From: Xanthomarina arctica | GTDB lineage: Bacteria; Bacteroidota; Bacteroidia; Flavobacteriales; Flavobacteriaceae | NCBI RefSeq assembly: GCF_014638915.1 | Contig: NZ_BMFQ01000003.1 | Coordinates: 778,138-842,137 of the forward strand | DNA: 64,000 nt | Direction: 5' to 3' | In this document: positions 49,618-64,000 of the stretch, piece after piece | How positions within the stretch are numbered: the stretch's first letter is position 1 | How the letters are laid out: every line of letters starts with the position of its first letter | Position numbers and translations under genes: made by a program | The notes under the pieces: model-generated | Seen by the model: only the letters and a program-made list of their open reading frames with translations | The model's database searches: none | Told to the model about the DNA's origin: nothing

Positions 49618-49802
49618 TTATTATTAGATTATTTTATTTAGAACGATCAACAATAGCATAAACAAAAAATGTCATCAGAAATTAGAGAGCTATAAAACTA
49701 TCATTCTTCCGACCATACCTACTTTCCTCATTTTTAAGACTCAAAGTAAAACTAAGCTATTAAAAAAGAAGTTCTCAATTCACTTTTAAAGATAAATGAT
49801 TG

Positions 49803-49810
49803 TATCTTTG
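49803..49810 (+). promoter_or_regulatory. -7 box of the Fic gene
   Basis: TATCTTTG matches TAnnTTTG. It lies inside the longer open frame, so transcription starts after the first ATG at 49796, which fixes the start at 49835. A 13-bp direct repeat TGATAGCATCAAA follows it twice, possibly a regulator site. Confidence 0.65.
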
Positions 49811-49834
49811 ATAGCATCAAATGATAGCATCAAA

Positions 49835-50809
49835 ATGAATCCTCCTTACGAAATAACTCCAAAAATTTTAAATTTAATTACTTCTATTTCAGAAAAAATT
49901 GGGGAAATAAACGCAAATTACTTAAATAAACCTTCTCCAAAATTAAGAAAGCAGAATAGAATTAAAACGATTCACTCTTCTTTAAAAATTGAAGGTAATA
50001 CTTTAACAGAGGAACAAATAACGGCACTTCTTGAAAAGAAAAGAATTATTGGACCCAAAAAAGATATTCTAGAAGTTTTAAATGCAATCGAGATTTATGA
50101 GAATTTAGAAAAATACAAGCCCAACGACGAAAAATCTTTTTTTAAAGCACATCAAAGTTTAATGAGGAACCTTATGGAAGGTCCTGGGAAATACAGAAAA
50201 CAAAGTGTTGGCATTATAAAAGGCTCCATTATAGAACACTTAGCGCCACCATTTGAAAATGTCCCCTATTTAATGAAAGATCTTTTTAAATACTTGCAAA
50301 GCTCTGAAGAAATTGAATTAATAAAAAGCTGTGTTTTTCATTATGAAATGGAATTCATTCACCCTTTTTTAGATGGAAATGGTAGAATGGGAAGGTTATG
50401 GCAGACTATAATATTAATGGAAAAATATCCGATTTTTGAATTTCTGCCTTTCGAAACAATGATTAGTAACGACCAAGAACACTATTACAAGGCATTAGCT
50501 GCAAGTGACAAATCTGGAAAGTCAACAAAATTCATTGAATACATGCTAAATGTAATTGACGTTTCAATGAATGACCTAATGGATTTTAATAATAGAACTT
50601 TAACCGAGCAAAATAGACTTGAATATTTTGTTTCGATAAATAAGAAAGCGTTTTCAAGAAAAGATTATATGAACGTTTTTAAAGATATTTCTTCATCAAC
50701 GGCAAGTAGGGATTTGAAAAAAGGTTTGAAATTAAACTTATTTAAAAAATTGGGTGAAAACAATAAAACAACATACAAAATAAGTCCTAATAACAATGGC
50801 TTAAAATAG
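49835..50809 (+). CDS. Fic family AMP-transferase, N-terminally autoinhibited
   Basis: A 324-residue protein from the ATG at 49835; the frame opens 13 codons earlier but that part overlaps the promoter. The catalytic loop is HPFLDGNGRMGR with H176, an exact match to HxFx(D/E)GNGRxxR. The N-terminal helix has SLKIEGN, matching the (S/T)xxxE(G/N) inhibitory motif, so it is an internally autoinhibited (class II) Fic protein. The C-terminal part looks like a winged helix (KKAFSRKDYMNVFKDISSSTASRDLKKGL), typical of Fic proteins with DNA-binding tails. It probably adds AMP to a protein; no antitoxin gene is adjacent. Confidence 0.92.
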   Translation: MNPPYEITPKILNLITSISEKIGEINANYLNKPSPKLRKQNRIKTIHSSLKIEGNTLTEEQITALLEKKRIIGPKKDILEVLNAIEIYENLEKYKPNDEKSFFKAHQSLMRNLMEGPGKYRKQSVGIIKGSIIEHLAPPFENVPYLMKDLFKYLQSSEEIELIKSCVFHYEMEFIHPFLDGNGRMGRLWQTIILMEKYPIFEFLPFETMISNDQEHYYKALAASDKSGKSTKFIEYMLNVIDVSMNDLMDFNNRTLTEQNRLEYFVSINKKAFSRKDYMNVFKDISSSTASRDLKKGLKLNLFKKLGENNKTTYKISPNNNGLK

Positions 50810-52994: not shown

Positions 52995-54203
52995 ATGAAA
53001 ATTACAGTTACTTTAAAACCACTTCTTCATAAGAACCATAGCCAAATAGCTATTGATTTTCCATTTAGCGACAGTACAAAAGATTACATTAAAAAATTTA
53101 ATGGTGTTACATGGAGCGCTACAAATAAGACGTATTATGTATCGCACAGCGATCAAACCTTACATTTCCTTTTTTCATATTTACAAAAAGGAGGATATTA
53201 TATAAACTATAGTGCTTTAAAACTTATAAAAAAAGCACCGGAATCACCTACAAGCAAAATAAAACCACCAGATAAATTAAGCTTATTTAAGGAGTTGACT
53301 TTGGACCAAAAAAAACTATTAAAAGAGTATGTTACTTATTTACGCGGAAAACGACTTAGCGAAAGTACGGTTTCCTCTTACGGCTATTTTATTCTTCGTT
53401 TTTTACACCATCATAAAAACTTAGATAAAACAAATTGGAATACTAGAAGCCTGGAGAGTTTTATGGAAGAAATAATTACAAAAGAATTTTATAGCATAAG
53501 TAGTCACCGGCAATGCATAAGTAGTTTTAAGCATTTTACAGCATTTTGCGAGTTAGATAATTTTGATGCAACAAATTTTGCACGTCCAAAAAAAAGCAAT
53601 TTTTTACCAACCATTTTATCTAAAGAAGCCATAATAGATTTATTACAAGTAACAAAAAACCTAAAACATCGGGCGATATTAGGGTTACTTTACTCGGGAG
53701 GACTTAGAATAGGAGAGCTTTTAAATTTGAAATTAAACAATTTGGATATAGACAGAAGTCAGATACATATACAACAAGGAAAAGGCCGGAAAGATCGTGT
53801 TGTGGTTATGAGTGAAGTTATTAAACCGCTTTTATTAAATTACATTCAAACTTATAGACCTGCAGTATATGTTATTGAAGGGCGCGATGGCGGTTTATAT
53901 TCGGCCAGTAGTATTAGAAATTTCTTAAAGCAGTCTTGCAAATTAGCGGGGATCCATAAGGTTGTGACACCGCACACTTTAAGACATAGTTATGCCACAC
54001 ACATGTTAGAAAACGGGATAGATTTACGTTATATACAGGAGTTATTAGGACATGTTAAACCAGAGACTACCATGATTTATACGCATGTGGCACAAAAAAA
54101 CATCATGCAAATACGCAATCCGTTGGATGTTATAGTTGAGGAGCTAAGGTTAAAAGACAAAGGCAACAATAAAGTGTTGATATCCCGCAATTATAACCCT
54201 TAA
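52995..54203 (+). CDS. Tyrosine recombinase (integrase) heading the cassette array
   Basis: A 402-residue recombinase. Residues 1-85 are an extra N-terminal domain (ITVTLKPLLHKNHSQIAIDFP; GVTWSATNKTYYVSHSD) of a kind I associate with Bacteroidota integrases. A SAM-like core-binding domain follows (about 104-200), then the catalytic domain with R238 (GGLRIGE), K263 (QGKGRKDR), H327-x-x-R330 (HTLRH), H353 (LGH) and the nucleophile Y362 (MIYTHV). The end, TTMIYTHV...IRNPLD, closely resembles integron IntI. However, the roughly 20-residue IntI-specific insertion before HTLRH is missing, so it is XerC/D-like rather than a classical IntI. It reads towards the array, with the likely attI just past its stop codon. 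Probable role: insertion and excision of the cassettes. Confidence 0.93.
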   Translation: MKITVTLKPLLHKNHSQIAIDFPFSDSTKDYIKKFNGVTWSATNKTYYVSHSDQTLHFLFSYLQKGGYYINYSALKLIKKAPESPTSKIKPPDKLSLFKELTLDQKKLLKEYVTYLRGKRLSESTVSSYGYFILRFLHHHKNLDKTNWNTRSLESFMEEIITKEFYSISSHRQCISSFKHFTAFCELDNFDATNFARPKKSNFLPTILSKEAIIDLLQVTKNLKHRAILGLLYSGGLRIGELLNLKLNNLDIDRSQIHIQQGKGRKDRVVVMSEVIKPLLLNYIQTYRPAVYVIEGRDGGLYSASSIRNFLKQSCKLAGIHKVVTPHTLRHSYATHMLENGIDLRYIQELLGHVKPETTMIYTHVAQKNIMQIRNPLDVIVEELRLKDKGNNKVLISRNYNP

Positions 54204-54240
54204 TTAGCTATATTTGAGTTTATATAACGAGTTATCTATA
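54204..54240 (+). other. Candidate attI at the 3' end of the integrase gene
   Basis: GTTATCTATA at 54231-54240 is the exact reverse complement of the first end box of element 1 (54545-54554), so it marks the left end of the first cassette. Just before it, ATAAC-GA-GTTAT forms an inverted pair, as expected of a double-stranded recombinase site. The six bases ahead of GTT (TAACGA) resemble the six-base spacer of the hairpin elements (AAAACC, ATAAAC). Confidence 0.65.
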
Positions 54241-54554
54241 AGTTACTCACCAACAAAAATTATTGGAAAATCTATAAGTCTGAACTTCCAATAAGGGAAT
54301 AATTACTCAGATGAATAATGTAATCTGAAAAACGTTACGGATTGGATTCTGTTTGATTTTATAAACTAAGATTGAAAAGCTTGCGTTTATCGTTACGACT
54401 GAATTACACGCAGAAAAACCAATCTGAGCTAATCTGACAGTAGAAATGTATCATTGCGCTTAAACCGTTGCTAAAATCAGAATTCCTAAATTATATTTAT
54501 ATAAAAATTTAAACATCTGAACTCTGGCTAACTATGAAAAGACCTATAGATAAC
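54231..54554 (+). mobile_element. Cassette 0, apparently without an ORF
   Basis: A 324-bp unit bounded by the complementary boxes GTTATCTATA and TATAGATAAC. No reading frame of useful length was found on either strand. ATCATTGCGCTTAAACCGTTG around 54452-54472 resembles the right arm of a hairpin element, possibly a decayed one. It could carry the array promoter or an RNA, but I see no firm sign. An 11-codon frame from 54534 (MKRPIDNNVYN) runs into element 1. Confidence 0.55.
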
Positions 54555-54681
54555 AACGTATATAATTAATGGCTAGTTATAGCTTGCTTACGAAAATCTT
54601 TGCAGATTTTCTATTCGGTTTTTATTTACTAAATTAGGTGCTGAAACACGCCACTAATCATATACAAACACGTTGGCAACA
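54545..54681 (+). repeat. attC-like hairpin element 1
   Basis: A 137-bp element. Left box TATAGATAAC, 3-nt spacer AAC, arm 54558-54573 (GTATATAATTAATGGC), a centre with the small hairpin GAAAATC...GATTTTC, right arm 54650-54665, 6-nt spacer AAACAC, right box GTTGGCAACA (54672-54681). Arms pair over 16 bases except A/C at positions 7 and 12. It belongs to the same sequence type as elements 2 and 4. Confidence 0.85.
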
Positions 54682-54695
54682 ATTAAAAGCAACCT

Positions 54696-55424
54696 ATGGC
54701 ATTAACAAATAAAAACGTAAGTTATACAGCTTTCCTGAGTTTAGACGCAGGAAATTCTACTGGCTCAGGTTTTCATTTGACTTTTGAAAAAAAGGAGTAT
54801 TTGATTACTGCAAAACACGTTCTTTTTGACGAAAAGGATAAGTTAAGGTGTGAATCATTATTAATAACTTTTCAAAACCATACAAGCGAACAAGAAGATG
54901 CCAAAACCATAGTTATAGACGAATTAGATAAAATTAAAATTTTCAAATCACTTAAGTCTGACATTATTGCTATTTCATTAAATGATTCCGAATTATTTCG
55001 GATTGAGGAAAATGGCAAAGATATTGTTAGTGTAAATGACGATGACATTGGGGAATTGAAAACAATTGAAATTGCTAACAATATTTTACTTGTAGGATTT
55101 CCAACATCACTAATTATGCAAAATGCTGTTTTCTTTGATATTAATAGACCTCTTTTAAGAAAAGGAATTGTCGCAGGAATTAACTCTAAAGAAAACACAT
55201 TCATCATTGATTGTCCAGTTTTTTATGGAAATAGTGGTGGTCCAATAATAGAATACAGAGAAAACAACGAAATGAAATTAATCGGAATAGTTTCAAAATA
55301 CATACCTTTCGTAACAGAATGGAAAAACAACAGAGAAAGTGCTTTTGTAAGACAAGAATTTTCTAATTCAGGGTATGCTATTTGCGTTCCTATCTGTGAA
55401 ATAACTCAACTGTTAAGTAAGTAA
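54696..55424 (+). CDS. Cassette 1 gene A: trypsin-like serine protease
   Basis: A 242-residue trypsin-fold protein. The catalytic triad is readable as H41 (ITAKHV), D89 (KSDIIAI) and S180 (YGNSGGP), and an early GSGF strand (24-27) is typical. It has no signal peptide, so unlike DegP relatives it is probably cytoplasmic. Its ATG is only 15 bp from the end of element 1, leaving no room for a promoter inside the cassette. The stop codon is 2 bp before the start of the repeat-protein gene in the same cassette, suggesting joint translation. The role is unknown; an immune or processing function with the neighbour is a guess. Confidence 0.85.
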   Translation: MALTNKNVSYTAFLSLDAGNSTGSGFHLTFEKKEYLITAKHVLFDEKDKLRCESLLITFQNHTSEQEDAKTIVIDELDKIKIFKSLKSDIIAISLNDSELFRIEENGKDIVSVNDDDIGELKTIEIANNILLVGFPTSLIMQNAVFFDINRPLLRKGIVAGINSKENTFIIDCPVFYGNSGGPIIEYRENNEMKLIGIVSKYIPFVTEWKNNRESAFVRQEFSNSGYAICVPICEITQLLSK

Positions 55425-55426
55425 TT

Positions 55427-55954
55427 ATGATTATTCCAAGAGATAAAAACCCACAATTAAATCGTCTTTTAAATCCAAATTTAAATAGACAAATAAATCC
55501 TATTTTAAATAGGAACATTAATCCTATTCTAAATAGGAACATCAACCCAATTCTAAATAGAAACATAAATCCCGTTTTAAACAGAAATATCAATCCTGTA
55601 TTGAACAGAAACATAAATCCCGTTTTAAATAGAAATATTAATCCTGTTTTAAATAGAAATATTAACCCAAAGTTGAATAGGAATATAAATCCAAATATTA
55701 ATTACAATTTTAATGGATATTTTAGATTTGATAGAAATCTTCAGGTCACTCATTTTATTGTTGTAGTTGATAGGAATATCTTCCAGATATTTGATTTCAA
55801 TCTAAATAATTCAGCTTTTGCAGTCGGACATATGCAAGGCGGATTTATCATTTTCGATTCATCGAATCAATATATTAGTCATTATGAAAGTGATTCTCAA
55901 AACGGATTTAATGAATTTGACCGAAATAATAATTGGATAGGAATAATAAAATAA
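55427..55954 (+). CDS. Cassette 1 gene B: NPxLNRNI octapeptide-repeat protein
   Basis: A 175-residue protein. Residues 8-87 are ten tandem octapeptides of the form NPxLNRNI (x = I, V, K, N or Q), followed by a degenerate eleventh. The C-terminal about 80 residues (GYFRFDRNLQVTHFIVVVDRNIFQIFDFNLNNSAFAVGHMQGGFIIFDSSNQYISHYE) look like a small beta-rich domain. No signal peptide. At DNA level the repeat is 24 bp (55448-55687). The function is unknown. It starts 2 bp after the protease gene and ends 1 bp before the end box of element 2. Confidence 0.75.
   Translation: MIIPRDKNPQLNRLLNPNLNRQINPILNRNINPILNRNINPILNRNINPVLNRNINPVLNRNINPVLNRNINPVLNRNINPKLNRNINPNINYNFNGYFRFDRNLQVTHFIVVVDRNIFQIFDFNLNNSAFAVGHMQGGFIIFDSSNQYISHYESDSQNGFNEFDRNNNWIGIIK
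55448..55687 (+). repeat. Ten tandem 24-bp coding repeats
   Basis: Ten units of 24 bp encoding NPxLNRNI. Near-identical neighbours point to recent expansion by slippage or unequal recombination, so copy number may vary between strains. Confidence 0.85.
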
Positions 55955-55955
55955 C

Positions 55956-56092
55956 TGTTGCCAACATCGTGTATAATTAATGGCTGGTTCTTGCATAATT
56001 ACGAAAATCCTCGCGGATTTTCTATTCGGTTTTTATTTGCTAAATTAGGTGCTTAAACACGCCACTAATCATACACAAAACCGTTGCCATTA
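55956..56092 (+). repeat. attC-like hairpin element 2
   Basis: 137 bp. Left box TGTTGCCAAC (55956-55965), spacer ATC, arms 55969-55984 and 56061-56076, spacer AAAACC, right box GTTGCCATTA (56083-56092). The centre has GAAAATCC-tcgc-GGATTTTC. Arm mismatches are A/C at positions 7 and 12 only. Confidence 0.88.
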
Positions 56093-56099
56093 ATTTAAA

Positions 56100-56552
56100 A
56101 TGACCGTCATAAATTTAATATTTTCGATTTCAATAAGTTTGATTTCCCTAATCATTAATCCGAATAGCGGAATAAAAACGACTGAATTACAGAGCGCTAA
56201 TCTGACTAAAAATGATAGTTGTGGGATTGAAAGTGTGACTTTAAAAACCGAATCGATAGACAAAAAACGCAAGTTTTTATTCTGGACATTGAAACACAAA
56301 AAAGTTATAGTTATCGACCGAATTATAGACCCAAACGGAATTGTACTTTTTGAAAAGAAATCAGTATTTATTTCCTCAATGGACGCAAGTGACGACAAAA
56401 GATTTCGACGTATTAAATTGACAGAAAATGAAATTTGGTTGTTTAGATATGGAAAAATCTTTAATACAAACGGAAGTATCAAACGTTACAATTTTTGCGG
56501 AGAATATCTCGGAACAAAAAATTGGGAAGACGGAGACTTCTATGAAAAATAA
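56100..56552 (+). CDS. Cassette 2 gene: exported or membrane-anchored protein of unknown function
   Basis: A 150-residue protein starting 7 bp after element 2. Residues 4-20 (INLIFSISISLISLII) form a signal or anchor helix. The remainder has SCGIESVTLKTESIDKKRKFLFWTLKHKKVIVIDRIIDPNGIVLFEKKSVFIS and ends with GEYLGTKNWEDGDFYEK, a likely beta-rich small domain. I do not recognise the family. It is the only gene of its cassette and is read in the array direction. Its stop codon lies 5 bp before the end box of element 3. Confidence 0.7.
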   Translation: MTVINLIFSISISLISLIINPNSGIKTTELQSANLTKNDSCGIESVTLKTESIDKKRKFLFWTLKHKKVIVIDRIIDPNGIVLFEKKSVFISSMDASDDKRFRRIKLTENEIWLFRYGKIFNTNGSIKRYNFCGEYLGTKNWEDGDFYEK

Positions 56553-56557
56553 AAAAC

Positions 56558-56697
56558 TAATGGCAACACCGTATAAAAAAAATTGCTATTTTGTGCTTAA
56601 CCAATGTTAGTTGCTTTGTTTGCTAGCTTCTGATTTTCCTTCGGAAAATCCTCGCACACAAACACGCAACTTTCCTTATACATAAACGTTGCCACCA
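56558..56697 (+). repeat. attC-like hairpin element 3
   Basis: 140 bp. Left box TAATGGCAAC (56558-56567), spacer ACC, arms 56571-56586 and 56666-56681, spacer ATAAAC, right box GTTGCCACCA (56688-56697). The central hairpin is GATTTTCC-ttc-GGAAAATC. Its arm sequence is unrelated to elements 1, 2 and 4, yet it keeps A/C mismatches at positions 7, 8 and 12. Confidence 0.86.
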
Positions 56698-56705
56698 ATT
56701 AAAAA

Positions 56706-57245
56706 ATGACCTCGAACAAATTCAAAATTGAACTTTTAAAGACAAATTGGATATCTGAAGAAGATACTCAAACGGATTTGTGTGCTCACGGACAAATGCG
56801 TGTGAATATTGGAAATGAAATTGTTGTTGACCAATCCGAAAATGATGGCTGGACGATTAGTGCAACTGCTCTACTCTTACTTCGGACTTTGGAACGGAAT
56901 CACACCAAAGAAAATCCTGTTGGAGACCAATTAATTCCTTGCTGTGGACACTTTTTAGTTTTTGACAATGATATGGAGGAAGTCTATATTGGAAGTTGTC
57001 CGAGCGGAATTGACTGGGAATTGACTCACGATAACGGAACTGTAACGCTGAAAACGGAAAGCGGAAATGAAACTAAAGTTGACTTTAAGGACTATAAAAG
57101 CCAAGTATTAGATTTTGTTGACCAAGTAGAGGAATTTTATAAAAATAGTCCAGAAAAGGAAATACCGAAAGACGAATTTGACCGAAAAGGATATTTACAA
57201 TTCTGGAAAGAATGGAATGAAAAAAGAAGTAAGTGGAAAAAATAA
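56706..57245 (+). CDS. Cassette 3 gene: soluble protein of unknown function
   Basis: A 179-residue soluble protein starting 8 bp after element 3. It has a two-part look: a beta-rich region (LCAHGQMRVNIGNEIVVD; WTISATALLLLRTLERNH; QLIPCCGHFLVFDNDMEEVYIGSCPSGIDWELTHDNGTVTLKTESGNETKVDF) and a helical, charged C-terminus (VLDFVDQVEEFYKNSPEKEIPKDEFDRKGYLQFWKEWNEKRSKWKK). Four cysteines (C27, C100, C101 and C114 or nearby) could bind a metal. I know no family for it. Single-gene cassette; the stop is 1 bp before the end box of element 4. Confidence 0.7.
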   Translation: MTSNKFKIELLKTNWISEEDTQTDLCAHGQMRVNIGNEIVVDQSENDGWTISATALLLLRTLERNHTKENPVGDQLIPCCGHFLVFDNDMEEVYIGSCPSGIDWELTHDNGTVTLKTESGNETKVDFKDYKSQVLDFVDQVEEFYKNSPEKEIPKDEFDRKGYLQFWKEWNEKRSKWKK

Positions 57246-57246
57246 C

Positions 57247-57384
57247 TGGTGGCAACACCGTGTATAATTAATGGCTTGGTTATCGCCAACATACGAAAAT
57301 CCTCGCGGATTTTCTATTCAGTTTTTATTTGCTAAATTAGGTGCTTAAACACGCCACTAATCATACACAAAACCGTTAGCCACA
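57247..57384 (+). repeat. attC-like hairpin element 4
   Basis: 138 bp. Left box TGGTGGCAAC (57247-57256), spacer ACC, arms 57260-57275 and 57353-57368, spacer AAAACC, right box GTTAGCCACA (57375-57384). Almost identical to element 2 outside the end boxes. Confidence 0.88.
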
Positions 57385-57408
57385 AGCTGAAAAGCCAGCC
57401 GCACAGTC

Positions 57409-57456
57409 AAGCACATTTCATTTTTTTCGTGCCTCAAAAAATAAAAAGAGCTTGCC
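57409..57456 (+). repeat. Direct repeat flanking the five-gene module, left copy
   Basis: An imperfect 45-bp direct repeat with the copy at 62893-62938: shared words are AAGCACATT, TCGTGCCTCA and AAAAGAGCTT. Each copy can form a small hairpin from GCAC and GTGC. It lies between element 4 and the HTH gene. Confidence 0.65.
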
Positions 57457-57525
57457 TTTTCCCATCACCTCTCCCAAAAAAAGGAAATAATTAATAAAAA
57501 CAAAAGAATTCACCTGATAAGTTAA

Positions 57526-57533
57526 TATATTTG
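57526..57533 (+). promoter_or_regulatory. -7 box of the five-gene cassette
   Basis: TATATTTG matches TAnnTTTG and stands 18 bp before the HTH gene, so this cassette, unlike the small ones, has its own promoter. Confidence 0.5.
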
Positions 57534-57550
57534 CGTATAACACAAATTAA

Positions 57551-57766
57551 TTGGCGAAATTGGAAATAAATAGAATCAAAGTAGTTCTTGCTGAAACCAG
57601 AAGAAAAAACAAATGGTTAGCTGAACAATTAGATAAAGATGAATCTACAATATCTCAATGGTGTACGAATGCTCGACAACCATCATTAGATACGTTATCA
57701 AACATTGCGAACGTACTTAATGTGGATATTAGAATATTGTTACATTCTACAAAAAGTAACTTATAA
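57551..57766 (+). CDS. Cassette 4 gene 1: XRE-type HTH regulator
   Basis: A 71-residue protein from a TTG start with a single Cro/C1-type helix-turn-helix: RIKVVLAETRRKNKWLAEQLDKDESTISQWCTNARQPSLDTLSNIANVLNVDI. There is no ATG in the frame. Its size and position before a methyltransferase are those of controller (C) proteins of restriction-modification systems, which time expression of methylase and effector after entry into a new host. It is 1 bp from the methyltransferase start, so the genes are coupled. Confidence 0.88.
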   Translation: MAKLEINRIKVVLAETRRKNKWLAEQLDKDESTISQWCTNARQPSLDTLSNIANVLNVDIRILLHSTKSNL

Positions 57767-57767
57767 A

Positions 57768-58970
57768 ATGGAGAATCAAAAAACATATATTGATTTGTTC
57801 TCTGGGTGTGGAGGACTTTCATTAGGATTACATAACGCAGGTTGGAAAGGTACTTTTGCTATTGAAAAAAGTGAAGATGCCTTTAAAACACTTGAACACA
57901 ATTTAATCAAAAAGAAAAAACATTTTGATTGGCCAAATTGGTTAGACCAAAAACATCACGACATAAATCAAGTTTTAGAAAATCATTCTGAAAACTTAAT
58001 AGCTTTAAGAGGTAAAATTGATTTAGTTGCTGGTGGTCCACCTTGCCAAGGATTTTCAATGGCAGGCAGAAGAATTGAAAATGATTCAAGAAATGATTTA
58101 ATCAATTCCTACATTAAATTTATTGACTTGGTAAAACCTAAGCTAATATTTTTTGAAAATGTTAAAGGTTTTACACAAGGTTTTAGAAAGAATGACAAAA
58201 AAGGAAGAGCCTACTCATTATATGTAATTGATGAACTAAAAAAGAAAGGATACACTGTCCAAGGACATCTTATCAATTTTGCTGATTATGGAGTTCCTCA
58301 AAAAAGAACACGATTTATTTTAGTAGGTATTCAGAATGAATTTGTAGAGAATAATTCAAATATTAATAAAGAAACTTTCTTTGAAAAAATTAAAAACAAT
58401 AAAGAAAACTTCTTAATTAATAAAAACCTTACGGTAAATCCTTCTTTAGAAAATGCAATTTCAGACTTGCTTCAATCTAATGGACAAATAGAATCTGAAA
58501 CACCTAATTTTAAAGCTGGTGTTTATGGAGAAATTGAATCGAAATATCAAAAATACCTGCGAAAATATAAAAAACAACAAAGCAATGTAGATAGTCACAG
58601 GTTTGCAAAACATACAGACGTAGTTAAGAATAGATTTCAAGTTGCTTTAGACGAAAAACTAACTAGTTCAACTTATAGAGAAAGATTTAAATTAAAAAAG
58701 AGTAGCACAAAAATATTAGAAGCAGATAAGCCTACCCCGACAATTACTACACTTCCAGATGATTACATTCATTATTGCGAACCAAGAATAATGACAGTTC
58801 GTGAGTATGCACGTATTCAATCATTTCCTGACAATTATCAATTTAAGGGGAAATATACAACTGGAGGAAAAAGAAGAACACAAGAAGTTCCTAGATATTC
58901 ACAAATTGGAAATGCAATTCCTCCTTTATTTGGAGAACAAGCAGGTTTAGTTTTAAAATCAATGATATAA
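57768..58970 (+). CDS. Cassette 4 gene 2: DNA cytosine-5 methyltransferase
   Basis: A 400-residue C5-cytosine methyltransferase from the ATG at 57768; the frame opens earlier but overlaps the HTH gene. All core motifs are present: IDLFSGCGGLSLG (I), GGPPCQGFSMAGRR with the nucleophile C93 (IV), FFENVKG (VI, E130), QKRTRFILVG (VIII, from Q178) and YSQIGNAIPP (X). The target-recognition region lies between VIII and IX (about 200-330). The recognised sequence cannot be read. It should protect self DNA from the rest of the cassette. It overlaps the ATPase gene by one base (TAATG). Confidence 0.95.
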   Translation: MENQKTYIDLFSGCGGLSLGLHNAGWKGTFAIEKSEDAFKTLEHNLIKKKKHFDWPNWLDQKHHDINQVLENHSENLIALRGKIDLVAGGPPCQGFSMAGRRIENDSRNDLINSYIKFIDLVKPKLIFFENVKGFTQGFRKNDKKGRAYSLYVIDELKKKGYTVQGHLINFADYGVPQKRTRFILVGIQNEFVENNSNINKETFFEKIKNNKENFLINKNLTVNPSLENAISDLLQSNGQIESETPNFKAGVYGEIESKYQKYLRKYKKQQSNVDSHRFAKHTDVVKNRFQVALDEKLTSSTYRERFKLKKSSTKILEADKPTPTITTLPDDYIHYCEPRIMTVREYARIQSFPDNYQFKGKYTTGGKRRTQEVPRYSQIGNAIPPLFGEQAGLVLKSMI

Positions 58971-61450
58971 TGACAAAAGTAAGCTTTAGAACTAATGTTT
59001 TGCTTAAAAGTATCATTGGCAAAGATCTTATTACTGATGATAACATTGCTGTTTTAGAACTAGTTAAAAATTCTTTTGACGCAGGTTCTAAAGAATCAAA
59101 TATTATATTCAGAAATGTCCTTCATAACCAAGAAATTAAAGAATATAAAAAACTAAACGCTTCAGAAATTATTATTTCAGATAGTGGCTCAGGAATGTCT
59201 GAATATGATTTGATTAATAAGTGGTTAAATATTGCGTATTCTGAAAAAAAATCAAAAAAAGAAGAGCATAACAGAACCTTAGCAGGTAACAAAGGTGTTG
59301 GCAGATTCTCTTGTGATAGATTAGGTAAATTTTTAACAATTTACACAAAAAAAGAAAACTCAAACTTAATTAAACTTTCAATAGACTGGCGAAAATTTGA
59401 ACAAATTGATGACATTGAAATTAATATTCAAGATATCAATTTTGACCTTGAAGAAATAACAATGATTCAATATCAAAACGAAACCAACTTAAACTCGTTT
59501 AAATCAGGAACAACTTTATCAATAACATCTCTTAGAGAAGAATGGAGCCATAAAAAAATTCTTTCTCTTAAACGACAACTGGAAAAATTTATTAATCCAA
59601 ATCAGAGTTTTGAATCTGAAAAATTTGATGTTAATATTTTAGCAGAAGAATTTATAAAAATTGAAAAAGACTTTCAACCTTTTCAAAAAATAAATGGTAC
59701 AGTAGAAAATAAAATTTTTGATAAACTTAATTTTAAAGTAACATATATTCATTCTGAAATTTCTGAAGATGGTACAAAAATAACCACAACTCTAAAGGAT
59801 AGAGGAAATGAAATTTTCACTCTCACAGAACATAACCCTTTTGATTTACTCAAAAACATAAAAATTCACATTTATTATTTAAATCCTTACTCGAAAGCTT
59901 ACTTTATGAAGCAAACTGGAATTCGTTCTAACGAATTTGGTTCAATTTCTTTTTTTATAGACGGCTTTAGGGTTCCTCCCTATGGAGATTCTGGGGATGA
60001 TTGGTTAGGTATGGAGAACAGAAAAAACCAAGGTAGAGCAAGATATTTAGGAACTCGCGAAGTTATAGGAAGAATTGAGGTGTTTGGTAATCAAGAAAAA
60101 GAAGATGATGAAAAATATTTTAAAATTATTTCTAGTAGGTCAGGTGTATTAAATAATGATATTTTCAATCAATTAACTAAATTTTCAAATCCATTTGGAT
60201 ATTATTTAAAAACTTTAAGGAGATTAGAAAGATTTGTAGTTGAAGGGATTAATTGGGATAGTATAACTATTAAAAACTTTAGTAAGCTAGAAGATGAAAT
60301 AATTAACGACCCTAATTGGGATGAATCAAAGGAACTTTTTAATGAAGATTCACTCACAAGAAATAAAAGAATCTTATCAGTTATAGAAAAAATTGTAAAT
60401 GTAAAAAAAGATGAAATTATCGATTTATCAATTAATCGTGATTTTGTATCTGACTTAGCTGATGAGCAAAAACAAAAATCAGAAGCAGAACTAAATTCTA
60501 TCGTAAATCAATTATCTAAAAAAGAACTCTCGTCTGTTGAGTTAAATCAACTTTTGAGTAAAATATCAACTTCAAAAATAGAGTTGGACAGCTTCCCTAT
60601 TTCTCAAAACGAAATAGACAAATTAAAAACTGAGCAAGAAAAATTAAAAATTCAAATTCAGCAACAGTTTGAAAATGTAAAAACTCTAGAAGAGGAAAAA
60701 ATTAAAGCTGAAAAGGATGCTGAAAAATTAGAAAAAGAATTAGAATTAGAAAAAGAAAAGAATACTTATCTCAAAACTTCTTCACGTTCATTAACTGAGG
60801 ATGCGAAAGGATTAGTTCATAACATAAAAATTACTTCAAAAAAAATAAGTGATAGTGTAGACAATCTATACCATAAGGTTATAGAAAATAATTACACTAA
60901 AAATAATCTTTTAAAATCTTTAGGAGCAATAAAATTTCAAGCCGAAAAAGCAAACAAAATTAGTAAAATAATTACACGCTCAAATTTTAAAGCAGATGCA
61001 AATGCACAAATTGCAGATGTAGTTAAATACATAAATCAATATGTTAATATTTACTCTGACATTTATCCTAAAACGGAACTAGATTTTGAAGTGATATGCA
61101 ATGATTCAGAACTTGTTAAAAAATTCAGTTTATTAGATATATCTGTTGTTTTAGATGATTTGATTTCCAATTCAGTTAAAGCATCTGCTAAAAACATTAA
61201 AATAGAAATGTCTAATCCATCAAAAGATATTTTGAAAATATATTTTTCAGATGATGGGAACGGAGTATCTAAAGAGTTCATAGAAAACAAAGAAACAATT
61301 TTTGACTTAGGTATTACTACAACTCTTGGGGGGTCTGGTATTGGATTAAATTCGGTTAGAACTGGATTGAAATCAATGAAAGGGGAAATTAAATTTATAG
61401 GAAACAATATTCAGTTAAAAGGTGCTTGTTTCGAAATCACAATACAATAA
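58970..61450 (+). CDS. Cassette 4 gene 3: double GHKL ATPase with histidine-kinase-like C-terminus
   Basis: An 826-residue protein with two GHKL folds. The N-terminal one is Hsp90/MORC-like: ELVKNSFDAGS (N34, D37), ISDSGSGMS (D71-G75) and LAGNKGVGRFSCDRLG (105-119). A long middle domain follows (SIDWRKFEQID... GFRVPPYGDSGDDWLGMENRKNQGRARYLGTREVIGRIEV), then a coiled coil (about 540-605). Next comes a kinase-like dimerisation helix with H617 (GLVHNIK), and a second ATPase like those of histidine kinases (N734 in SNSVKAS, DDGNG 761-765, LGGSGIGLNSVR 786-797). I know MORC-type ATPases next to cytosine methylases, but not this fusion. The next gene is a receiver-like protein, overlapping by one base. 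Confidence 0.85.
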   Translation: MTKVSFRTNVLLKSIIGKDLITDDNIAVLELVKNSFDAGSKESNIIFRNVLHNQEIKEYKKLNASEIIISDSGSGMSEYDLINKWLNIAYSEKKSKKEEHNRTLAGNKGVGRFSCDRLGKFLTIYTKKENSNLIKLSIDWRKFEQIDDIEINIQDINFDLEEITMIQYQNETNLNSFKSGTTLSITSLREEWSHKKILSLKRQLEKFINPNQSFESEKFDVNILAEEFIKIEKDFQPFQKINGTVENKIFDKLNFKVTYIHSEISEDGTKITTTLKDRGNEIFTLTEHNPFDLLKNIKIHIYYLNPYSKAYFMKQTGIRSNEFGSISFFIDGFRVPPYGDSGDDWLGMENRKNQGRARYLGTREVIGRIEVFGNQEKEDDEKYFKIISSRSGVLNNDIFNQLTKFSNPFGYYLKTLRRLERFVVEGINWDSITIKNFSKLEDEIINDPNWDESKELFNEDSLTRNKRILSVIEKIVNVKKDEIIDLSINRDFVSDLADEQKQKSEAELNSIVNQLSKKELSSVELNQLLSKISTSKIELDSFPISQNEIDKLKTEQEKLKIQIQQQFENVKTLEEEKIKAEKDAEKLEKELELEKEKNTYLKTSSRSLTEDAKGLVHNIKITSKKISDSVDNLYHKVIENNYTKNNLLKSLGAIKFQAEKANKISKIITRSNFKADANAQIADVVKYINQYVNIYSDIYPKTELDFEVICNDSELVKKFSLLDISVVLDDLISNSVKASAKNIKIEMSNPSKDILKIYFSDDGNGVSKEFIENKETIFDLGITTTLGGSGIGLNSVRTGLKSMKGEIKFIGNNIQLKGACFEITIQ

Positions 61451-62127
61451 TGGTAAGAAAGTGCTTAATAGTCGATAATGAAGACCAAACTGAAGAAATA
61501 GAAAAACTCATCAGAGATGCTAAAAATGATGGTATCGAATTAGTTTGTGAACAATTTAGTGTTGGAAATCCAGAATATTCAGAATTTCTTACAAAAGGAG
61601 CTATAGATATTCAAAAAGTTCTTTCTGAATACCGCAGAAGATTCAGTGGAAACGTATTTCATCTTGTAGCTTTTGATTATCAACTTGATGATGATATTAA
61701 TGGAGTTGAGTTAATAAGACAACTAAAAGCAAATAAAATATTTAGGACTACTCCTAAGATTGTCTACTCTGGATTAATGGATGATATCCTTAAAACAATT
61801 ATTCGTGATGAATCTAGAGACAATGCTGTTACAAGAATAAAAGCATTAGTTAAAAATGGAGTAATCGATTATATAGAAAGAGAAAATAGAGATATTGAAA
61901 TTAGAAATTTTTTTAAAACCAATATTGAATCAACAGATTTAATTATTGAAGAAGAATTAAAGAAATTTCCTGATTTAGTATTTGAACAAAATTTCATTAA
62001 CAAAAATTTAGAGGGTAAAACATTTCTTGAAATAGCTAAATATATTGAAGCTAATGATCAAATCAGAAATGAATTTAAAAAAGAAATAATTCAACAAACT
62101 ATCGCATATTTAACAATCAAAATTTAA
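61450..62127 (+). CDS. Cassette 4 gene 4: receiver (REC)-domain protein
   Basis: A 225-residue protein from the ATG at 61450, overlapping the ATPase stop (TAATG). The N-terminal about 140 residues are receiver-like: CLIVDNED (acidic pocket D9, D12), HLVAFDYQLDDDINGVELIRQL (phosphoacceptor D76), PKIVYSGL (S107) and ALVKNGVIDYI (K135). Residues about 30-65 hold an insertion relative to a normal receiver. The C-terminus (about 150-225) is helical with no DNA-binding motif, so output is probably through protein contact. With H617 of the previous protein it forms a two-component-like pair. Confidence 0.82.
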   Translation: MVRKCLIVDNEDQTEEIEKLIRDAKNDGIELVCEQFSVGNPEYSEFLTKGAIDIQKVLSEYRRRFSGNVFHLVAFDYQLDDDINGVELIRQLKANKIFRTTPKIVYSGLMDDILKTIIRDESRDNAVTRIKALVKNGVIDYIERENRDIEIRNFFKTNIESTDLIIEEELKKFPDLVFEQNFINKNLEGKTFLEIAKYIEANDQIRNEFKKEIIQQTIAYLTIKI

Positions 62128-62128
62128 T

Positions 62129-62878
62129 ATGCAACGACTTTTACTTATAATCCATCCCGAAGATTCAACTACTGGTTTTTTAGATAAAATAAAGAATCAT
62201 TTAAATAGTGAGTTAACATCTATAACACATCATTATAATGTTAAACCAAATGAAGAGTCTCACGAAAATTGTCTTCAAAGTATTTTAGACCATCCTAAGA
62301 ATGGTTTAATACTATTTATGGGACACGGAAGAAGTAATTACTTATACGGAGCAAAAGGAAAATTATTTGACAATGCTTTTATAAGTGAAGATGCAAAAAA
62401 AGAACACCCAGAGGATTATTTTTACAAAGAAGAATTTATAACGTTTGATAACATTGATTCATTCAAAGGAAAAAAAATCTTTTGTTTAACTTGTAATTCA
62501 AATGGAAAAATAGGATTAGAAGCAATAAGAAAAGGAGCCAAAGTCTTTTTAGGATTCGGAGATTTACCTACTTCAATTGAAGAATTAAAAGAACAAAAAG
62601 AAGAAAATAAACCTGGAACATCTCTTGCTAAAATAGAAAAAGCATTAAAAACAGAAATAAATTATATAATAAAGAAAAGCATAACCATCTGTATTCAAAA
62701 AAATCAAACTTTTGAACAATTAGTTGACTTAATTCGATTTATAACAAATCAAAGAATATCTTATTATTTAGTAGACCAGAAAAAAATTAGCGAAAGAAAA
62801 CTTATAGCAAATTATCTTTATGATTTTAAACAAGGTATTGTTATCTATGGAAATAGAAAAGAAAAATTAATTGGATAA
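62129..62878 (+). CDS. Cassette 4 gene 5: CHAT/caspase-like protein
   Basis: A 249-residue protein with the caspase-like dyad pattern: NGLILFMGHGRSNY (H66, general base) and KKIFCLTCNSNGKIGLEAIRKGAKVFLGFGDLP (C119 and C122; C122 before NS is the better candidate nucleophile). This is the HG...C...GA spacing of CHAT domains. The C-terminal third is helical (about 165-249), with no transmembrane segment. CHAT proteases act as effectors in several bacterial immune systems. It starts 1 bp after the receiver gene and is the last gene of the cassette. Alternatives such as a gingipain-like C25 fragment are less likely at this length. Confidence 0.72.
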   Translation: MQRLLLIIHPEDSTTGFLDKIKNHLNSELTSITHHYNVKPNEESHENCLQSILDHPKNGLILFMGHGRSNYLYGAKGKLFDNAFISEDAKKEHPEDYFYKEEFITFDNIDSFKGKKIFCLTCNSNGKIGLEAIRKGAKVFLGFGDLPTSIEELKEQKEENKPGTSLAKIEKALKTEINYIIKKSITICIQKNQTFEQLVDLIRFITNQRISYYLVDQKKISERKLIANYLYDFKQGIVIYGNRKEKLIG

Positions 62879-62892
62879 GCCAACGCAAGTGA

Positions 62893-62938
62893 AAGCACAT
62901 TCAAAGTTTGCTCGTGCCTCACAAATTTAAAAGAGCTT
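62893..62938 (+). repeat. Direct repeat flanking the five-gene module, right copy
   Basis: Partner of 57409-57456. In this copy GTGAAAGC (62889-62896) pairs with GCTTTCAC (62935-62942), forming an 8-bp stem around the repeat, and CCAACGC stands on both sides. The pair brackets all five genes inside the cassette. Confidence 0.65.
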
Positions 62939-62973
62939 TCACGCCAACGCTAGCAAGTTTGCGGAATAAAGCC

Positions 62974-63176
62974 AGTGGCTAACAACGTGTATAAAACATA
63001 GCTATTATAGGCTTTCCGAGAGGTTTTTGTATATTTAAAAAGTACGCCAAATTTTTTATTTGGTTATATTTATAAAAGAAAATTAAACATAAAAATAAAA
63101 AATTCGGCTCGTGCTAAATCCGAAAAGTTAGTGTTTATTTATACGCTACGTTTCATACACAAGACCGTTGTACACA
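62974..63176 (+). repeat. attC-like hairpin element 5 (long type)
   Basis: 203 bp, the longest. Left box AGTGGCTAAC (62974-62983; nine of ten bases complementary to the cassette's own start), spacer AAC, arms 62987-63002 (GTGTATAAAACATAGC) and 63145-63160, spacer AAGACC, right box GTTGTACACA (63167-63176). Its centre is unrelated to the others and has CCAAAT-ttttt-ATTTGG. The mismatches are again A/C at arm positions 7 and 12. Confidence 0.85.
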
Positions 63177-63192
63177 ATTTAAACAAACCCAA

Positions 63193-63813
63193 ATGACGCT
63201 GAACAAATTACTATTTCTTTCACTACTTATAATATCCTTGAATAGTTGCAAAGACAATAAAAAAGCATCAATTAACGATGATCAAAACAAATCAATTCCT
63301 GGTGATTATTACGAAAATGAAAACGCAGAAGACCTAAACGAAAAAGGAATAGAATTTAGTAAAAATGGAGATTATGATAAAGGAAAAGAGGTTTTTCTAA
63401 AATCGTTAGAATTGGACCCAAATAATCCAACTACATTAAGTAATTTAGGATTAAATAGATATTTAGATTATGACTATGAAAATGCAATAAAATATTACCA
63501 AAAATCTTATGAAGTTTCAGATTCAACATATCATATTGCAGGAATAAATTTAGGATTGACCTATTTCTATAATAAAGAGTTTGATAAAGGTGTTGTAATT
63601 ACCAACTATGTTATTGAAAACACCGATGATAAGGATATCTTATCTACAGCCTATGTTCATAGAGCATTAAATTATCTTGGTAAAGACGACTGTGAAAAAG
63701 CTCAAACTGATTTAAATTATATAATAGAAAATTTTCAAGGAATCGGAAACACTGCATATCACATCAACGATTTGACCGAAAAAATAAAAAACTGTGTACA
63801 ACACCGTATATAA
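63193..63813 (+). CDS. Cassette 5 gene: TPR-repeat lipoprotein
   Basis: A 206-residue protein. The lipoprotein signal ends in the lipobox SLNSC (cysteine 19). Then come three or four tetratricopeptide-like repeats (about 48-165: AEDLNEKGIEFSKNGDYDKGKEVFLKSLELDPNNPTTLSNLGLNRYLDYDYENAIKYYQKSYEVSD; YVHRALNYLGKDDCEKAQTDLNYI). It should be a membrane-anchored protein-interaction module. The last residues (CVQHRI) and the stop codon are encoded by the left box and arm of element 6, so the cassette end supplies the stop. Confidence 0.82.
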   Translation: MTLNKLLFLSLLIISLNSCKDNKKASINDDQNKSIPGDYYENENAEDLNEKGIEFSKNGDYDKGKEVFLKSLELDPNNPTTLSNLGLNRYLDYDYENAIKYYQKSYEVSDSTYHIAGINLGLTYFYNKEFDKGVVITNYVIENTDDKDILSTAYVHRALNYLGKDDCEKAQTDLNYIIENFQGIGNTAYHINDLTEKIKNCVQHRI

Positions 63814-63931
63814 AAAATGCGTAGTTTAGTGCTTAATCAAAGGAAAGTGCGTACTTGCTTTCATCCGATTTTCGTTCCGAAAATCCTCTGACACAAGCAC
63901 GCACTTTTCATATACAAAACCGTTACCACAC
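63793..63931 (+). repeat. attC-like hairpin element 6
   Basis: 139 bp. Left box TGTGTACAAC (63793-63802), spacer ACC, arms 63806-63822 (17 bases here) and 63899-63915, spacer AAAACC, right box GTTACCACAC (63922-63931). The central hairpin is GATTTTCG-ttc-CGAAAATC. A/C mismatches at arm positions 7 and 12. It overlaps the end of the cassette 5 gene. Confidence 0.87.
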
Positions 63932-63940
63932 ATTTGAGAA

Positions 63941-64000
63941 ATGACAGCGATTATAGTATTTATATTGATAATTATTGGATTCAACTTAATTCCAGAGCTG
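63941..64000 (+). CDS. Cassette 6 gene, start only (cut by window end)
   Basis: An ATG 9 bp after element 6 opens a frame of 20 codons to the window edge. The visible residues (AIIVFILIIIGFNLIP) are a hydrophobic helix, so a membrane or exported protein. The leader spacing after the GTT box matches cassettes 2 and 3. Nothing more can be said. Confidence 0.55.
   Translation, partial: MTAIIVFILIIIGFNLIPEL

Follow-up and report, generated by a model that had tools for sequence, protein, structure and literature searches.

What kind of system is an array of gene cassettes that is laid out like an integron but headed by a recombinase that is not a classical integron integrase? This question is raised by a 64,000-nucleotide stretch of the genome of Xanthomarina arctica (genome G000, contig C3, positions 778138–842137; hereafter, the window), in which a gene for a tyrosine recombinase of 402 amino acids (aa) is followed by an attI-like site and then by seven cassettes and six attC-like elements, all in a single direction (Table 1). 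One cassette lacks an open reading frame (ORF) of 50 aa, five are complete, and one runs off the end of the window. Because the window end coincides with the end of contig C3 (842137 bases), the break in the array is an assembly break and the array continues past the contig end. These features agree with the original prediction, made from the letters of the window alone, of an integron-like array that has a non-classical integrase at its head and runs off the window. The array follows the direction of the cassette genes that have a recognisable product. We consider it very likely, from sequence evidence, that this is an integron-like array whose recombinase, without the IntI-specific stretch of integron integrases, is predicted to insert cassettes at the GTT of the attI-like site and probably also excises and rearranges them at attC-like hairpins.

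The evidence that carries this interpretation begins at the cassette ends. The bases that follow the GTT of an element are the reverse complement of those preceding the next element's AAC and not of those preceding the element's own AAC. For 20 cassettes of X. arctica, the ends matched on average at 6.15 of 8 positions, compared with a permuted mean of 2.98 and with none of 100,000 permutations as high, while the two ends of the same element matched at 2.68 of 8. Taking this and related genomes together, 140 of 171 neighbouring pairs matched at 6–7 of 7 positions and 99 at all 7 (shuffle control: mean 7.0, maximum 18 in 5000 shuffles), compared with 18 of 189 for the two ends of the same element; among 109 distinct end pairs, 78 matched (shuffled mean 3.1, maximum 10). 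Of the 236 hits from three model searches, 7 were repeats of one place and 192 entered this count; the 37 hits excluded from it were 35 single, degenerate or contig-end elements of X. arctica and two partial matches. Pairs were left uncounted if the neighbours lay more than 8 kb apart or if a stretch end interrupted them, and 17 of 20 stretches yielded pairs. Because the cassette ends are complementary, a circle closed at GTT/AAC would rebuild a 10-bp R stem. Moreover, the letters of the R box vary between cassettes with complementarity kept, and we therefore infer base pairing in a folded strand.

Within each element, AAC is followed by a 3-base spacer and the L box; a variable interior then separates this box from its complementary L box, and six spacer bases lead on to GTT. 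Measured from AAC to GTT, the six elements of the window span 123–126 bases and once 189, and those across the arrays 118–192 bases; the earlier figure of 137–203 bp had included flanking box bases and is replaced by these values. The commonest L boxes are GTGTAT, GTATAT, GTATAA, GGCTAT, and GTGTAA, and in 158 of 179 elements the two L boxes were fully complementary (mean 37 and maximum 55 after shuffling). Specifically, in an alignment of 24 elements, with gaps at the inner stem pairs placed by hand, compensatory two-sided changes were found at 8 of 13 stem pairs (9, 12, 15, 16, 17, 20, 21, and 22). The elements sort into a few sequence types and vary between groups (e.g. AACAGCACCTAC...GGTAGCTGCAAAACGTT in G055). 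Because they have several interior types, RNAalifold recovered just 9 pairs; single-sequence folds vary, and the hairpin claim therefore rests on covariation. As judged from these alignments, the elements covary as R-spacer-L hairpins and have the attC-type architecture in which structure is kept and sequence is free. The classical attC end box has the consensus GTTRRRY, which only 9 of 183 elements ending in GTT fit. The departure from this consensus had been recognised in the original prediction, which gave the box as GTT-N6-A; it is better written GTT-R-N6-A, with R as the first base after GTT in 181 of 183 elements and A as the eighth in 180 of 182.

These observations bear on an alternative that we regard as rather unlikely, i.e. 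integron-like recombination by the same 402-aa enzyme on double-stranded sites that are not folded. This alternative is in keeping with the enzyme's resemblance to Xer enzymes, which act on double strands, and with its lack of the stretch to which the handling of folded sites is ascribed. However, the R-box letters vary within one genome yet stay complementary, and the inner stem pairs covary, which argues for pairing rather than letter recognition.

The recombinase consists of an N-terminal extension of ~100 aa, a SAM-like domain, and a catalytic domain, and it gave a Phage_integrase match and two SAM-like matches. R238, K263, H327, R330, H353, and Y362 were the same in all 37 homologues aligned; by what is known of the family, we take these to be the catalytic residues, with Y362 as the presumed catalytic tyrosine. 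The nearest named homologues belong to Flavobacteriaceae, for example Xanthomarina (79% identity), and the automatic NCBI name of some homologues includes 'integron integrase'. The best-scoring model was the XerA-type NF040815 (205 bits, cut-off 220), while the integron integrase model TIGR02249 gave 185 bits, under its cut-off of 265. The alignment of IntI4 to the recombinase splits into two stretches, and between the same alignment columns the array enzymes have 54–56 residues (median 54), compared with a median of 96 in IntI and 51–62 in Xer. By alignment, the recombinase is thus without the IntI-specific stretch (I2 region) of integron integrases. None of 60 relatives had an IntI over the TIGR02249 cut-off, and the listed matches break around model positions 180–240. 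In a quick tree of 71 rows (14 of 30 IntI rows were used, one short Xer row was omitted, and the Xer rows were from the same genomes), the 14 IntI formed one clade (Shimodaira–Hasegawa-like approximate likelihood ratio test (SH-aLRT) 99) and the 10 Xer another, and none of the 46 array enzymes fell inside either, with the root unsure. Its one outgroup sits on a branch of 7.3, so the tree is poorly rooted and the array enzymes may or may not be sister to IntI. The predicted structure had a mean predicted local distance difference test score of 81, low at 354–371, the stretch holding the tyrosine; its closest folds were XerA, archaeal Xer, IntI4, and XerH, and the Foldseek and VIA rows contained both Xer and IntI folds and did not decide membership. 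An ordinary integron, diverged within the IntI/attC family, is a highly improbable explanation given the TIGR02249 score and the break in the matches of relatives, the 54–56 residues in place of 96, the absence of array enzymes from the IntI clade, and the rarity of GTTRRRY. As a separate observation, a second, shorter set of array-type recombinases (~380 aa) exists (L087 on contig C71 of G004, L066 in G027, and L185–L195); G004 has both kinds, and its shorter one adjoins a 13-element array.

Together with the recombinase, the attI-like site heads the arrays. By eye, a TATA-rich box ending in GTT lies 3' of the recombinase stop at 20 of 24 loci; three more have a looser box and one has none in the 147 bases displayed. 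The junction test asked for a GTT within ~250 bases of the recombinase end and a 9-base downstream partner, which were found at 16 of 19 loci from the class (2.81 expected); 12 of 15 loci from the family and order had a 9-base partner (1.95 expected). With 10 bases, the numbers were 12 and 9 (0.9 and 0.71 expected, respectively). For the family and order, 16 of 24 loci were entered, excluding loci cut by a contig end and G035 (<900 bases), and one more was dropped as short; for the class, 19 of 29 loci were used, 20 having been fetched and G380 being too short. In G545 the hit falls on an element preceded by a run of N, and in G477 and G049 the chain starts further on, 736 and 651 bases past the first stop. 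As a pattern in the DNA only, a primary attI-like site adjoins the integrase gene and cassettes appear to have been inserted at one point. A gene order fixed among relatives, named in the original prediction as telling against it, was not seen; inspection by eye of the 24 recombinase loci shows first cassettes that differ from one another.

The arrays extend well beyond the window, and beyond what the original prediction, whose integron-like interpretation is supported by the sequence comparisons, had in view. Searches for elements used E values up to 1e-4, with at most 58 candidates scored per genome, and those for the recombinase 1e-60. In X. arctica, further elements fill the small contigs C6 and C7 and head C3 and C5, and C2 carries arrays of them, giving at least 58 element matches in total. 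G021 consists of a single contig, in which 54 elements occupy the 69 kb that start at the recombinase and another 45 occupy 51 kb elsewhere; every element lies on the same strand. Among 60 genomes including the source, 37 had elements and 21 the recombinase. In the 37 genomes of the same family (G000–G036), all 33 that encode either an array-type recombinase frame (29) or a similar but shorter frame (4) had elements, and three of the four that lacked the recombinase by frame length (G011, G025, and G030) had no elements (Fisher p 0.0005; 0.007 if the four shorter frames are not counted). In the class (by GTDB, taken as Bacteroidia), a recombinase homologue was found at 1e-55 in 90 of 295 genomes. 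The recombinase match ended at most 300 bases from the array-side contig end in 16 of 53 loci, which is consistent with repeats breaking assemblies. Of 296 genomes sampled from the phylum, 84 had a true IntI over the cut-off; one of these, G095, shares the class of X. arctica, and none shares its family. These searches place arrays across the family, and a less strict test extends them to further families of the class.

This distribution also bears on whether real arrays might be moved by another enzyme, i.e. XerC/XerD or one acting in trans, with the 402-aa recombinase merely adjoining. Some arrays do lie far from the recombinase gene (the second array of G021 and the C2 arrays of X. arctica), and G026 has elements without a TIGR02249 match; nevertheless, the recombinase co-occurs with the elements and, also in further families of the class, lies next to the head of arrays, and we regard this explanation as very unlikely.

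If cassettes are moved at these sites, which element travels with a gene? Among 81 pairs of cassettes with an identity of 95% or more, 78 also reached 95% in the following element, and 3 did so in the preceding element. Considering the 74 near-identical pairs with both neighbours different, the following element was alike in 72 and the preceding one in none. Because a gene shares its following and not its preceding element, the mobile unit is a cassette with its 3' site, as in integrons. One pair came from outside G021, namely cassette 5 of the window and a second copy in X. arctica (C2:596301-596936; 95.3% identical), for which the identity was 0.93 for the next element and 0.48 for the preceding one. 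Cassette 2 has a homologue in G021 (identity 0.78) that ends at the same bases; a stretch of C6 with one cassette and its following element has an 86% match to G021; and the first 87 bases of cassette 3 are the first behind attI in G006 (85 of 87 alike), whose contig stops there. Megablast at 70% cover found no whole cassettes common to different genomes, while the more sensitive blastn found sharing. That the elements are mobile palindromic repeats of the miniature inverted-repeat transposable element or repetitive extragenic palindromic type, spread between genes with the cassettes as a by-product, is barely credible despite the single, often degenerate elements elsewhere in X. arctica and the few sequence types, as the outer bases complement the next element and not the element's own other end, and such repeats would neither explain an element travelling with the preceding gene nor place 54 and 45 elements on one strand. 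With respect to elements unlinked to cassettes, which had also been named as telling against an integron, the other arrays of X. arctica show the same cassette-end matching, and single, often degenerate elements outside clear arrays exist as well (L034–L042).

Our working model of an integron-like array is, therefore, that the 402-aa recombinase would insert cassettes at the attI-like GTT just 3' of its own gene and would excise and reorder them at the attC-like hairpin elements. The junction would lie at GTT/AAC, and the joining would be done by the same enzyme. Since complementarity is kept even though the R boxes of different cassettes differ in their letters, the cassette site would be used as a folded single strand. 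The cassettes may serve as a reservoir of adaptive genes.

Several observations weigh against this model. The ends do not match in 31 of 171 cassettes, and the covariation of the L boxes, taken by itself, could also stem from a double-stranded inverted repeat. All but one of the 81 cassette pairs (80) are from G021 and non-independent, many of them from one cassette family of ~438 bases, and both elements flanking the G021 homologue of cassette 2 differ (identity 0.53 for the preceding and 0.55 for the following element). Among the 34 loci of the junction test, a 9-base partner was not found in G437, G477, G356, G014, G019, and G049, and the junction hits in G504 and G032 are of low complexity and possibly due to chance. 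G026 has 28 elements and no TIGR02249 match at 1e-20, and may have an array without its own enzyme or with another enzyme. Finally, known integrases are said to require I2 for folded-strand recombination in the available text of one paper (PMC7790495).

How, then, does the integron-like array relate to known systems? With sedentary chromosomal integrons and superintegrons, it shares a recombinase, an adjoining primary site, a cassette array on one strand, and hairpin-like 3' sites, as well as a GTT junction, a site that travels with the preceding gene, large arrays, and ORF-less cassettes. Cassettes composed of gene(s) and a 3' site, in one orientation and moving as a unit, were likewise found, mostly from one genome. 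In contrast to integrons, the array recombinase has no IntI-specific stretch, has the N-terminal extension, and lies outside the IntI clade, and the R boxes pair over 7–10 bases. As for Xer proteins, XerA, XerC, XerD, and XerH, together with IntI4, are the nearest folds, and a XerA-type model scored best, but the array-linked enzyme has an N-terminal extension, and in the tree the Xer rows from these genomes group in a clade of their own. Xer dif and pdif sites are short (28 bp) and double-stranded and are used by the chromosomal XerC/XerD. Modules of pdif were considered and set aside, as the sites here are 118–192 bases from AAC to GTT with pairing across the element. In a typical integron, the integrase gene is divergent from the cassettes, whereas here it is co-directional. 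The original prediction was right that the recombinase reads towards the array, although this is no distinguishing trait, because Treponema integrons, as far as the available text describes them, also have a recombinase gene reading toward the attachment site and cassettes; those are intI genes, and there is no IntI here (PMC3607928).

The system would, from its sequences, work like an integron while falling outside the definitions of one that we tested (IntI domain, clade, and end box). We lean towards the view that it represents a second, large, unrecognised integron lineage in Bacteroidia, which has folded single-stranded sites and an enzyme to which the I2 helix was never added, either as an independent invention or as a relic of an I2-less ancestor. 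I2 and single-strand recombination were stated in 2020, in the part of the paper available, to be exclusive to integron integrases (PMC7790495). The accessible portions of other papers list Bacteroidota among the phyla with integrons (PMC9668308, PMC8618304), report intI genes, chosen by the additional domain, in the Bacteroidetes/Chlorobi group in a 2008 survey (PMC2426708), and name one complete Bacteroidetes integron, in Salinibacter ruber, for IntegronFinder 2.0 (PMC9024848). A literature search over titles and the starts of abstracts, covering few subscription papers and no preprints, gave no recognisable description of this system, and an earlier description is possible. Integrons are treated as defined by IntI, and folded-looking sites without I2 make the claim of I2 exclusivity directly testable; an I2-less cassette system also provides a comparison for how integrons arose. 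Moreover, the arrays point to a large store of mobile genes in the class that a search by IntI and GTTRRRY could miss.

Table 1 Features of the array in the window (window coordinates)
Feature	Position	Strand	Evidence or relation
Array tyrosine recombinase, 402 aa	52995-54203	+	Pfam-type domain matches, alignment of homologues
attI-like site TTTATATAACGAGTT, 15 bases past the recombinase stop; crossover predicted at GTT 54231-54233	54219-54233	+	Sequence pattern
Cassette 0, without ORF of 50 aa; ends GTTATCTATA / TATAGATAAC	54231-54554	+	
Element 1, attC-like hairpin	54552-54674	+	
Cassette 1: trypsin-like protein 54696-55424, 24-base-repeat protein 55427-55954	54672-55965	+	
Element 2	55963-56085	+	
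Cassette 2: ORF 56100-56552	56083-56567	+	Homologous cassette in G021
Element 3	56565-56690	+	
Cassette 3: ORF 56706-57245	56688-57256	+	
Element 4	57254-57377	+	
Cassette 4, 5.6 kb: helix-turn-helix (HTH), C5 cytosine methylase, GHKL-type ATPase, two ORFs without Pfam match	57375-62983	+	
Element 5, long type, 189 bases	62981-63169	+	
Cassette 5: ORF 63193-63813	63167-63802	+	Second copy on C2
Element 6	63800-63924	+	
Start of cassette 6, interrupted by contig end	63922-64000	+	

Turning to the cargo, the longest ORF was in forward orientation in 139 of 171 cassettes, in reverse in 14, and absent in 18; the forward ORFs had a median length of 226 aa and a median start 29 bases into the cassette. 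The claim that every cassette gene reads in the array direction held in the window for the genes with a recognisable product. With five genes in 5.6 kb, cassette 4 far exceeds the typical cassette length; its operon (HTH, type II C5 methylase, and GHKL-type ATPase) may, from these annotations, be a defence or restriction-linked module, and its two remaining ORFs had no matches in Pfam or PADLOC. Gene-less cassettes such as cassette 0 may be promoter carriers (cf. the available part of PMC11014356). Scans of the window yielded no Rfam family at gathering score and no tRNA. In cassette 1, the gene beside that for the trypsin-like protein has a tandem repeat of 24 bases (8 residues), and upstream of the recombinase an ORF at 49796-50809 has a Fic-like HPFLDGNGR motif, spotted by eye.

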